From NCBI RefSeq assembly GCF_004216915.1, contig NZ_SGXD01000001.1, positions 806,001 to 870,000 on the forward strand: a stretch of DNA of 64,000 nt, written 5' to 3'. Below the pieces are notes generated by a model that worked only from the letters and a program-made list of their open reading frames with translations, searched no databases and was not told the origin of the DNA. The position numbers were made by a program, and so were the translations under genes. Shown one piece after another: positions 13,176 through 33,317 of the stretch (position 1 is the first letter of the stretch; the number at the start of each line of letters is the position of its first letter). Source of the stretch: Motilibacter rhizosphaerae (GTDB lineage Bacteria; Actinomycetota; Actinomycetes; Motilibacterales; Motilibacteraceae).

Positions 13176-13284
13176 GGTCCCCGACGTCGTGTGCCTGGGC
13201 GGCGGTCAGGGCGCGCACCAGGTCCCCAACGTTGTGTGCCTGAGTGGGGGTCATAGCGCGCACCAGGCACACGACGTCGGGTGC
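13176..13284. repeat. Imperfect 45 bp tandem repeat with terminal inverted core (family C)
   Basis: Two imperfect 45 bp copies (13176-13220, 13221-13265) share GGTCCCC, ACGT and TGTGCCTG blocks and end in GCGCGCACCA. A third partial copy follows to 13284. Positions 13266-13281 are the exact reverse complement of 13180-13195 (16 bp), so the array can also fold into a large hairpin. It fills the gap before the ProA-like gene and ends about 10 bp before that gene's -10 box. Confidence 0.72.
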
Positions 13285-17988: not shown

Positions 17989-18106
17989 GTGATCATGCAG
18001 GTCCTGGGTCCCCACTTCGCCGTGATCAGCACTTCCTGTGGGCCCACTCCCCGTGATCATGCACTTCCTGTGGGTCCACTCCCCGTGATCATGCACTTCT
18101 TGGCCG
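17989..18106 (+). repeat. Palindromic repeat family A, left array of four units
   Basis: Four units of about 31-33 bp, each starting with GTGATCATGCA (17989, 18022, 18053, 18085) followed by a T/C-rich TTCCTG and a CCCAC-type block. The second unit has lost two bases of its core. There are no unique spacers, so this is not a CRISPR array. It lies in the 428 bp convergent gap between the marR and GTPase genes and is mirrored by the inverted array at 18219. The 110 bp between the arrays shows no gene or clear signal. Confidence 0.82.
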
Positions 18107-18218: not shown

Positions 18219-18382
18219 TGCATGATCACCGGGGAGTGGGCGCTCCAAGATCTGCATGATCACGGGCAAAGTGGGGGCGCCGCAGGATCTGCATGATCAC
18301 GAGCACGTTGGGGCTCCAGGATCTGCATGATCGCGAGCACGTGGGCGCCCCAAGATGTGCATGATCACGGGGGAGTGGGGCG
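18219..18382 (-). repeat. Palindromic repeat family A, right array of five inverted units
   Basis: Five units with core TGCATGATCAC at 18219, 18253, 18290, 18324 (one base changed) and 18358, spaced 34-37 bp and inverted relative to the left array. Each is followed by a GTGGG-type block. Left and right arrays could pair into long hairpins in transcripts from either flanking gene, so the block might act as a bidirectional terminator. Confidence 0.82.
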
Positions 18383-31397: not shown

Positions 31398-31506
31398 AGT
31401 TGATCAGGCTGCCCGATCATCGTCGCGGCCGACCGCACGAGGTGGTCGCCGAAGGGGTGGAATCCCGTCGGTGCGGCGACCACCTCGTGCGGCTACCTGA
31501 TCAACT
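31398..31506. repeat. Palindromic repeat family B, complete hairpin element
   Basis: An approximately 109 bp element bounded by AGTTGATCAGG and its exact inverse CCTGATCAACT. Nested inside is a perfect 19 bp inverted repeat (31433-31451 with 31474-31492) containing GCACGAGGTGGTC. Its first 47 bp recur inverted at 7415-7461. It lies upstream of davA in the 421 bp gap before the alcohol dehydrogenase gene's 3' end. No ORF fits inside, so it resembles a REP/MITE-like element. Confidence 0.82.
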
Positions 31507-31570
31507 GCCTCGCCGCGTCCGCGCACGCGTCCGCGTCCCGCACCTGCCTCGCCGGGGCCCGGACCCCAGG

Positions 31571-31755
31571 AACTGCATGATCACCGCGTAGTGGGGGCTG
31601 CCGCGGCTGGGCCCTCATGAACTGCATGATCACCGCGTAGTGGGGGCTGCCGCGGCTGGGCCCTCATGAACTGCATGATCACCGCGTAGTGGGGGTGGCG
31701 AAGTCGATGCGGTCCGGGGCGCCCACAACCTGCATGATCACCGCGCAGCGGGGGT
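31571..31755 (-). repeat. Palindromic repeat family A, 49 bp tandem array
   Basis: Two exact 49 bp units (31571-31619, 31620-31668) and a 27 bp third copy begin AACTGCATGATCACCGC. A fourth, variant copy starts at 31727 and runs to the stop codon of the alcohol dehydrogenase gene. The core TGCATGATCAC is that of the arrays at 17989-18382. Each unit carries an intergenic GTGGGGG block. Exact identity of the first copies implies recent duplication. Confidence 0.85.
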
Positions 31756-32927
31756 CAGGGGACGAACACCGGCCGCACGCACCCGTCCTTCTTCTCCTTG
31801 AACAGCTCGTACCCCTTCGGCGCGTCCGCGAGCGGCATCACGTGCGTACCGAAGAGCTCGGTCCGCAGTTCGCCGCGCGCCATCCGCTCGAGCAGCATCG
31901 GGATGTAGCGCGGCCCGTGCATCTGCGCCCCGCGCACGGTCAGGCCCTTGTTCATCATCGCGCCGAGCGGGAACTTGTCGACGACGCCGCCGAACACGCC
32001 GAGCAGGAACACGCTGCCTCCCTTGCGGCACGAGTAGATCGCCTCGCGCGCCGCGGTGGTGCGGTCGGTCTGCAGGCGGAGCTGCTGCTTCACCTGGTCG
32101 TACGCGTTCTGCACCCCCTCGCTGTGCGCCTCCATGCCGACCGCCTCGATGCAGACGTCGGGGCCGCGGCCGCCCGACATCTCGCGCAGCGCGTCGTCGA
32201 CGTCGACCTGCGAGTAGTCCAGCGTCTCGACGCCCTCGGAGAACTGGCCGGCCAGCGCGAGCCGCTCCGGGAAGCGGTCGATGATGATGACGCGCGAGGC
32301 ACCCAGCAGCTCGGACGCGCGCGCGGCCACCTGGCCGACCGCACCCGCGCCCCACACGGCCACGACGTCGCCCTCCTTCACCCCGCCGCGGTCGGCGCCC
32401 ATCCACCCGGTCGGCCCCGCGTCGGAGGCGAAGACCGCGCGGTCGTCAGCGACGGAGTCCGGCACCACGAACGCGGTCCCGTCGGCGTACGGCACCCGGA
32501 TGTACTCCGCGTGCGCCCCCGCGTTGCCGCCCATCGCGTGCGAGTAGCCGAAGCACCCGCCGGCCGCGTGGCCCCAGAGCGCCTCGGTGATCGCGGGGTT
32601 CGTGTTGGCGTTGTCGCAGAGGGAGTAGAGCTCCTGCTTGCAGTACCAGCACTTCCCGCAGGCCATGAACGAGCTGACCGCCACGCGGTCGCCGACGTGG
32701 AGCTTCTGCACACCCGAGCCGGTCTCGACGACGTCGCCGATGAACTCGTGGCCGATGACATCGCCCTTCTCCATCGCCGGGATGTAGCCCCCGAGCAGGT
32801 GGAGGTCCGACCCGCAGGCCACGGAGCGGCGTACGCGCAGGATGACGTCGTGGGTGTTCTGGAGGTGCGGGTCCGGGACCTTCTTGACCGCGAGCTCGTT
32901 GATCCCCTGCCAGGTCAGCGCCTTCAC
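31755..32927 (-). CDS. Zinc-dependent alcohol dehydrogenase (glutathione-independent formaldehyde dehydrogenase-like)
   Basis: A 390 aa medium-chain dehydrogenase. Catalytic-zinc ligands appear as Cys in ACGSDLH, the GHEFIGDV block, and a structural-zinc cysteine loop MACGKCWYCKQELYSLC. The NAD fold follows (VAVWGAGAVGQVAARASELLGASRVIIID, with the terminal Asp favouring NAD). The sequence resembles the class that oxidises formaldehyde or alcohols, but the substrate is not fixed. GTG at 32927 overlaps the upstream small gene by 4 nt. Its stop abuts a family A repeat. Confidence 0.9.
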   Translation of the reverse strand: MKALTWQGINELAVKKVPDPHLQNTHDVILRVRRSVACGSDLHLLGGYIPAMEKGDVIGHEFIGDVVETGSGVQKLHVGDRVAVSSFMACGKCWYCKQELYSLCDNANTNPAITEALWGHAAGGCFGYSHAMGGNAGAHAEYIRVPYADGTAFVVPDSVADDRAVFASDAGPTGWMGADRGGVKEGDVVAVWGAGAVGQVAARASELLGASRVIIIDRFPERLALAGQFSEGVETLDYSQVDVDDALREMSGGRGPDVCIEAVGMEAHSEGVQNAYDQVKQQLRLQTDRTTAAREAIYSCRKGGSVFLLGVFGGVVDKFPLGAMMNKGLTVRGAQMHGPRYIPMLLERMARGELRTELFGTHVMPLADAPKGYELFKEKKDGCVRPVFVP

Positions 32928-33277
32928 TTGTGCCCCAGCCTCTCCGCACGCCCGGTGATCGCCCGCAGGGGCGCGTTGAGGAGCGTCTTCTCGCTCGTGC
33001 CGGGCGAGTCCGCCTGGAGCAGCTCCCCCACCTCGATCAGCTGCTTGGTCTCGCGCAGCAGCTGGCGGAGGTCGGCGTCGGACGGGCCGCCGGGCCGCGG
33101 GTGCGCGGCGAGCTCGCTCCCGCGGTCGCCGGGCGCGGGACGCAGCTTCCAGTCGACGTCGTCGCGGCCCGCCAGGGGAGGCGGCACGACGACCTCGCCC
33201 GGGGGTACGGCGACCGTCACCACCTGCCAGCGGTCGTCGGTGGGGGTGCGGTCGCGGTGCAGCAGCTTGCCGAGCAT
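32924..33277 (-). CDS. Small conserved-looking protein coupled to alcohol dehydrogenase, unknown
   Basis: A 117 aa soluble protein without recognised domain. The N-terminal half is Pro/Val-rich (VAVPPGEVVVPPPLAGRDDVDWKLRPAPGD) and the C-terminal half is helical (DADLRQLLRETKQLIEVGELLQADS). Small proteins in this position next to such zinc dehydrogenases occur in other actinobacteria, but I cannot name the family. Coupled to the dehydrogenase by a 4 nt overlap. ATG at 33277 is the most likely start. Confidence 0.65.
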   Translation of the reverse strand: MLGKLLHRDRTPTDDRWQVVTVAVPPGEVVVPPPLAGRDDVDWKLRPAPGDRGSELAAHPRPGGPSDADLRQLLRETKQLIEVGELLQADSPGTSEKTLLNAPLRAITGRAERLGHK

Positions 33278-33317
33278 GCCGCCCCCATGCCCCGGGGTGG
33301 AGATCGACACGCACGCG

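Follow-up and report, generated by a model that had tools for sequence, protein, structure and literature searches.

A dispersed REP-like repeat family in Motilibacter rhizosphaerae and other actinomycetes, with an AbiEi-nuclease as its likely trans partner

Background

Among the short repeats of bacterial genomes, REP elements are the best known, and RAYT is the usual REP enzyme. To our knowledge, RAYT is also the only enzyme linked to REP elements. RAYTs have been characterized as present in one copy and inherited vertically (PMC8049555), and one group of elements, the CGTC-tagged REPs, has been reported without a dedicated transposase (PMC3733652). REP13E12 is named as a mycobacterial repetitive element (PMC10589994). 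On the protein side, EDxHD enzymes have restriction-like active sites (PMC3943268), and AbiEi binds paired 23-bp inverted repeats of its own promoter and bends DNA (PMC7319586). Accession numbers of this kind cite excerpts of the papers concerned.

In this report, we describe a family of short repeats found in a window of 64,000 nucleotides (the whole stretch of DNA that was analyzed) and in the genome from which it comes (G000). Our reading is that the family is a REP-like system operated by a nuclease of another class, and the pairing of enzyme and repeat is well supported. Among the papers listed by searches of the open-access literature, none concerns such core repeats by title or abstract, and an earlier description is possible in subscription papers; AbiEi or DUF559 proteins were not joined to dispersed repeats in any paper listed. 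By term search, the word "repeat" is absent from the Kineococcus genome paper (PMC2587704).

Results and discussion

Tandem units beside an alcohol dehydrogenase gene

A preliminary description of the window reported two exact 49-bp units, a partial unit, and a variant fourth copy at the stop codon of an alcohol dehydrogenase gene. TRF and a scan for the 11-bp core TGCATGATCAC recover all of these (Table 1), with an exact tandem repeat at 31570-31695 (period 49, 2.6 copies, 100% matches), although the partial unit measures 28 bp, not the 27 bp counted earlier. The tail of the fourth unit, ending at 31754, abuts the dehydrogenase stop codon at 31755-31757 (reverse strand; TCA on the + strand). 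Pfam domains PF08240 and PF00107 bear out the identity of this 3' neighbor; they occupy residues 155-403, and the real start is therefore possibly further in than the longest-ORF start. The 3' end of the dehydrogenase gene faces the array, whose other neighbor is the start of a carbon-nitrogen hydrolase gene. The exact identity of the two full units had been taken to imply recent duplication, a reading that we uphold: the simplest account of the 49-bp copies is local duplication of recent date inside an array.

The core had also been noted 13 kb away. Two further arrays, opposed to each other, indeed lie there, but the family is not confined to two sites, as the genome-wide counts below demonstrate. 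With at most one mismatch, TGCATGATCAC has 13 matches in the window, 11 of them exact, against 0.22 expected from shuffles. The two arrays near 18 kb jointly fold as one long stem (z -11.8 versus shuffles). At gathering scores, no Rfam family was found in the window, and a search of the plasmid collection found no similar DNA.

Two other features of the window deserve mention. The long palindrome between the tandem array and the next gene resembles DNA upstream of one set of DUF222-HNH genes in G000, and therefore may be a second dispersed element. A separate 45-bp tandem pair is located at 13176-13267 (85% matches by TRF).

Table 1. Positions of repeat units and associated genes (window positions, except for the nuclease gene, which is on contig C2 of G000)
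Feature	Position	Strand	Core	Details	Basis
Array of three exact cores and one degenerate unit	17989-18095	-		Tails toward an upstream + ORF	
Array of five cores (four exact, one mismatched)	18219-18368	+		Opposed to the array at 17989-18095	
Palindrome, ends GTTGATCAGG...CCTGATCAAC	31399-31505			Between the tandem array and the next gene	Sequence, fold, alignment
49-bp unit 1	31570-31618	+	31574-31584		TRF, core scan
49-bp unit 2	31619-31667	+	31623-31633	Same sequence as unit 1	TRF, core scan
Partial unit 3	31668-31695	+	31672-31682	28 bp	TRF, core scan
Variant unit 4	31722-31754	+	31731-31741	CCCACAACC, core, G-rich tail	Sequence, core scan
Zinc-type alcohol dehydrogenase	31755-33314	-			Longest ORF; Pfam
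AbiEi-nuclease gene of G000	C2:101221-102108			295 aa; single gene enclosed by inverted arrays of four and three units	

A repeat family with a preferred orientation

The genome (4,315,149 bases, 15 contigs) contains 159 + 169 = 328 exact copies of TGCATGATCAC, and the reversed control sequence has 0. The 161 units in the fetched stretches give the consensus CCCAnGAnn-TGCATGATCAC-GGGG, after which comes a G-rich tail. A unit consists of the 11-bp core, a preceding half-stem of 9-13 bp that is lineage-specific, and the tail. The consensus has no terminal GTAG or CGTC tag (CGTC occurs inside some stems only), and the units are without a U-run.

Neighboring cores are within 150 bp of each other in 97 pairs, of which 73 are same-strand, 20 head-to-head, and four tail-to-tail; the commonest spacing is 34 bp for same-strand pairs (14 cases) and 31 bp for head-to-head pairs. 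The latter are mostly hairpins, with about 40-46 bp between outer core ends. We rejected the complementarity of inner arms as a sign of hairpin selection, since arms of the same element (complementary at 6.6 of 8 positions) differ little from arms taken from different elements within one genome (6.3). Any head-to-head pair built from a single unit is necessarily palindromic, which makes this measure uninformative.

The tail usually points toward the 3' end of a gene. For 514 genes near cores, drawn from several lineages, 348 cases of a nearest downstream core were scored, and in 296 of them it runs antiparallel to the gene; these orientation counts are approximate, as gene calls came from a simple GC-position heuristic. 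On contig C1, 38 arrays were classed as codirectional (20), convergent (14), or divergent (four), and the adjacent gene pairs of the window, used for comparison, comprise 23, 14, and 13 of these types, respectively; five further C1 arrays, four in called ORFs and one at an edge, fall outside the classing. All four divergent arrays adjoin DUF222 or IS30-like genes. Apparent core-free stretches of contig C1 were dropped from consideration, as cores are present inside such a "gap." One IS30-like transposase gene (G000:C1:336509-337522) is positioned between two parallel cores and was perhaps inserted into an array.

A nuclease gene enclosed by cores

When genes near cores were clustered by similarity, one family stood out because outward-facing arrays bracket it in each of three lineages (G157, Planotetraspora thailandica, and G003). 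Pfam assigns its members AbiEi domains together with MTES_1575 or DUF559, a nuclease domain of the Vsr-like type; some of these matches are below curated cut-offs. The three proteins were used as the query for a partner search in 11 genomes. In 10 of 10 core-bearing genomes, eight of them outside the query, the best match is flanked by cores (at most one mismatch). None of the 20 lower-scoring homologous loci has a core within 1.5 kb; the comparison covers the loci of 30 among the 54 matches listed, and two of the 20 are pieces of one gene. The genome without cores (G001) has no close relative of the nuclease, its best match scoring 1.7e-38 versus 2.9e-130 in G000.

The layout is not uniform. 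G002 has one imperfect core on one side only, and its nuclease gene looks decayed, with an in-frame model match to the C-terminal part alone. In G060 and G075, the arrangement differs somewhat in that one side bears a hairpin, and G004 carries a seemingly intact gene. Outward-facing cores enclose six of the 514 genes near cores, and only two of the six encode the nuclease, the remaining four being a DUF222 gene, a 234-aa ORF, and two short ORFs (90-93 aa).

Genes around the nuclease recur. A RelA/SpoT gene is beside it in G000, G002, G003, and G004, and a DUF349 gene is found at its opposite side in three of these, G000, G002, and G004 (identified by Pfam for the G000 DUF349 gene and both G004 neighbors, otherwise by reading the sequence). 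A ClpX gene is near the nuclease in G256 and G033, with an extra short ORF between them in G256, and a GDP-mannose dehydratase gene is near it in G140 and Planotetraspora. These conserved neighbors look like vertical inheritance of one nuclease gene per genome, as described for RAYTs. No AbiEii (DUF1814) toxin gene is found beside the nuclease: the loci drawn have a single ORF between the arrays, and the scanned neighbors are the four gene types just named, with no toxin among them. G003 also has a second nuclease copy (G003:C1:1035829-1036774), which appears as two overlapping matches, is probably frameshifted, and has no cores nearby.

Predicted structure of the nuclease

A model of the G000 protein built from an alignment of eight sequences has a pLDDT of 91.0 and a pTM of 0.87. 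Residues 1-183 match the AbiEi antitoxin 6y8q (Z 8.1, Foldseek E 4e-6; AbiEi_4 3e-7), and residues from about 186 to 289 match the EDxHD homing endonuclease I-Bth0305I (3r3p; Z 12.1, rmsd 2.8, 94 residues aligned by VIA-align). The C-terminal domain also resembles Vsr (1cw0; Z 9.6) and matches Pfam MTES_1575 at 3e-8, just short of the cut-off. In 10 core-flanked proteins, E191, D222, E233, and D249 are invariant and H240 is nearly so, as judged from conservation and not from residue-by-residue superposition. The protein is predicted to consist of an AbiEi-like, two-domain DNA-binding part fused to a nuclease domain of the Vsr/EDxHD homing type.

Relatives of the nuclease and their own repeats

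With a profile of eight core-flanked proteins, relatives of the nuclease were detected in 197 of 393 genomes (E <=1e-30). For the loci fetched, an inverted repeat of at least 13 bp running from flank to flank is present at 14 of the 23 best relatives that lack an exact core, at nine of 20 lower paralogs, and at seven of 10 core-flanked loci; the flanks of nine of the 23 relatives and 11 of the 20 paralogs are without one. As controls, 24 DUF222 loci gave 0 apart from one run of N, and mismatched flanks gave 4.2% of 500. Variant cores, for example TGCATGATCAA or TTGCTTGATC, are found at three of the 23 relatives, and unrelated repeats at others.

Repeats were read off four nuclease flanks and then counted genome-wide as a test of prediction. 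Copies of AGAATGCTGGGTT number 82 in G033 and 0 in three other genomes, GGCTAGGGCGATC is present 10 times in G001 and 0 times in three other genomes, and GTCTCTCGCGAG has 58 copies in G325, 37 in G310, and 0-1 in six others. Each of the four repeats turned out to form a dispersed family in the genome from which it was read. The AGAATGCTGGGTT family flanks a second nuclease paralog of G033 (G033:C1:1248633-1249376), and its palindrome, which had been noticed before this nuclease was found, nests between core arms at many places in that genome.

A tree was built from 48 proteins; its 11 core-flanked rows require five label changes, versus a shuffled mean of 10.1. The main group holds seven core and three variant-core rows, and TGCATGATCAC is used by three separated branches. 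The core-flanked nucleases are therefore not one clade, which is a point against a simple one-clade history; the core may be of old date, or may have been adopted on more than one occasion.

Distribution of the core and turnover of stems

Among 393 genomes of the class, core counts are highest in G033 (413), G000 (328), G256 (106), G157 (90), and G003 (45), followed by G075 (35), G140 (28), G060 (24), and G360 (19); the G360 cores inspected seem to lie inside coding sequence. G004 has eight exact cores. The only same-genus genome among 60 relatives (G001) has 0, G003 belongs to the same family, and G033 belongs to another. Unit spacing varies widely across the genome, and copy number therefore does change in evolution. 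The lack of cores in the same-genus genome shows turnover between species rather than active tandem duplication.

Opposed cores occur in at least 107 stretches among named genomes, and all 80 listed are actinomycete by title; among the matches listed, carriers are Planotetraspora, Bailinhaonella, Kineosporia, Actinomadura, Quadrisphaera, Microbispora, and several metagenome bins. The core is amplified in several actinomycete families besides that of G000. The inner stem is lineage-specific (GTTGTTCGCG in Actinomadura, GAACCTCCCC in Kineosporia), and the identical outer 11 bp across lineages is a consequence of the search pattern chosen. The core pairs of Planotetraspora and Microbispora are of a non-hairpin kind.

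G157 and G256 belong to one genus and have different inner stems, a wholesale replacement. Four of eight G256 arrays nonetheless sit at the ends of genes whose G157 relatives bear arrays with another inner stem (the G157 side of this comparison comprises 38 clusters, with both nuclease-flanking arrays included), and an AIR-synthase-type gene has an array at its end in G033 too. Because gene-end sites are shared while stems differ, array sites persist while the unit sequence is replaced. In-place conversion or refilling of sites could produce this pattern, and each fits a nuclease acting at the core; a host role of the conserved sites is also compatible.

Further arrays are found in G003 and G033. 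At G003:C9:47885-48247, a 22-bp tandem array includes 16 exact cores with a spacing near two helical turns, and G033 has two fourfold arrays (C1:646607-647010 and C1:650649-651045) with periods of 128-131 bp that contain both repeat families.

Comparison with described systems

Like REP elements and REPINs with their RAYTs, the family comprises hundreds of short intergenic units with head-to-head hairpin dimers, a bias toward gene 3' ends, and lineage-specific families. It also shares one repeat-flanked enzyme gene at a conserved locus, although the enzyme here is a different one, enclosed in 10 of 10 core-bearing genomes (one-sidedly in G002). The Y1 (HUH) transposase domain of RAYTs, PF01797, is found in none of 10 genomes and in five of 14 control genomes, on which basis RAYT was rejected as the partner. 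Besides lacking that transposase and a terminal GTAG tag, the system differs in that its enzyme is predicted to have an unrelated nuclease fold and an AbiEi-like DNA-binding part. CGTC-tagged REPs are likewise short palindromic dimers. They were described in other phyla, however, the word Actinobacteria being absent from that paper (PMC3733652); here, CGTC is not terminal, and a candidate enzyme is present.

I-Bth0305I and Vsr share the fold predicted for residues 188-289, but are intron-borne or mismatch-repair enzymes, and the excerpts of PMC3943268 and PMC6083498 do not describe enclosure by their own dispersed repeats. The AbiE toxin-antitoxin system offers the AbiEi fold predicted for residues 1-183 and a protein known to bind inverted repeats (PMC7319586); in the present case, in contrast, there is no AbiEii toxin gene alongside, a nuclease domain is fused, and repeats are found at either side of the gene as well as throughout the genome. 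REP13E12 and other DUF222-HNH repeated genes are similar in that multiplied HNH genes are surrounded by repeats in G000, but they have no tie to TGCATGATCAC in nine other genomes.

A proposed mode of action

On balance, we favor classing the tandem copies as REP-like units of intergenic DNA that are non-autonomous, with the AbiEi-nuclease as their likely trans partner. That nuclease and repeat are functional partners is very probable, whereas the chances seem even that cutting drives the spread and homogenization of units. We infer binding, cutting, and spreading of units by the nuclease as follows. Two units placed head to head form a hairpin; the AbiEi-like part would bind a unit, and the nuclease would nick or cut at or near it. 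Repair copying would then spread and homogenize units in place. Local tandem gain, such as that of the 49-bp copies, could come from slippage or unequal exchange within an array.

Several observations speak against this pairing of enzyme and repeat. The core-flanked nucleases do not form one clade, and sharing of the core does not track the protein tree strictly; G004 has a seemingly intact gene yet few cores. In addition, DUF222-HNH genes are tied to cores in G000, and the conservation of array positions would suit a host function no less than a selfish one. Further points are the relatives and paralogs whose flanks have no inverted repeat of 13 bp, the deviating layouts of G060, G075, and G002, and the four genes between outward-facing cores that do not encode the nuclease.

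Alternative explanations

The units might instead be 3'-end elements of the host (terminators, mRNA-end protectors, or chromosomal binding sites), with the AbiEi-nuclease mainly a DNA- or RNA-binding regulator that does no spreading. The antiparallel orientation of downstream cores, the scarcity of divergent arrays on contig C1, the strong joint fold of the array pair near 18 kb, and array positions shared from species to species would all suit such elements. The same 3' bias is shared by REP elements (PMC3733652), however, which are thought to be mobile. Moreover, a host element does not readily account for a same-genus genome devoid of cores, inner stems swapped wholesale within one genus, units that have no U-run, or conserved nuclease residues, and we consider it unlikely, though deserving of attention. 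A defensive or self-marking role, in which the nuclease cuts foreign DNA and dispersed units act as decoys, markers, or restraining operators, is much less probable still. The N-terminal part does match several AbiEi models of a defense library, and AbiEi proteins bind inverted repeats (PMC7319586), but a single ORF lies between the arrays with no toxin partner seen, hundreds of gene-end copies exceed what an operator needs, and gene and repeats are both absent in G001.

Two further explanations place the movement of units elsewhere. DUF222-HNH (13E12-type) proteins could be the movers in place of the AbiEi-nuclease, their genes multiplying with upstream arrays. G000 has 27 DUF222 (PF02720) loci, and 23 of these have core arrays within 1.6 kb upstream; the cores upstream of its DUF222-HNH genes are antiparallel in 70 cases and parallel in one, and a downstream core is found at only one gene. 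Beyond this genome, DUF222-HNH is out as a general partner: a core is near two of 26 DUF222 loci from nine other genomes, the same-genus genome combines 12 DUF222 matches with 0 cores, and G033 combines eight with 413. Movement by these proteins therefore appears quite improbable. Separately, three sets of similar DUF222-HNH paralogs in G000 seem to have been multiplied along with core arrays. Least probable of all, in our view, is that the units are a MITE of the ordinary kind, belonging to an insertion sequence, or that they arose by plain slippage without any enzyme of their own. The IS30-like gene between cores on contig C1 would be consistent with the former and the 49-bp copies look like the latter, but that gene is one IS among hundreds of copies, and slippage can neither scatter 328 units nor explain why the same nuclease family is enclosed in 10 genomes.

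Conclusions

Returning to the AbiEi-nuclease as partner, a broader proposal is that actinomycetes have a widespread, RAYT-independent system in which paralogous AbiEi-nucleases each maintain their own dispersed hairpin family. A short core would be recognized and the rest of the unit rewritten in place, such that sites stay fixed while their sequence changes by species; the arguments for and against this wider scheme strike us as evenly poised. If it is true, a second, unrelated enzyme class has REP-type architecture, and enzyme-repeat partnerships arose more than once. It would also supply a candidate cause for repeat-rich actinomycetes, with each nuclease predicting its own genomic target. 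The replacement of stems at fixed sites would be a natural system in which to study bacterial concerted evolution.
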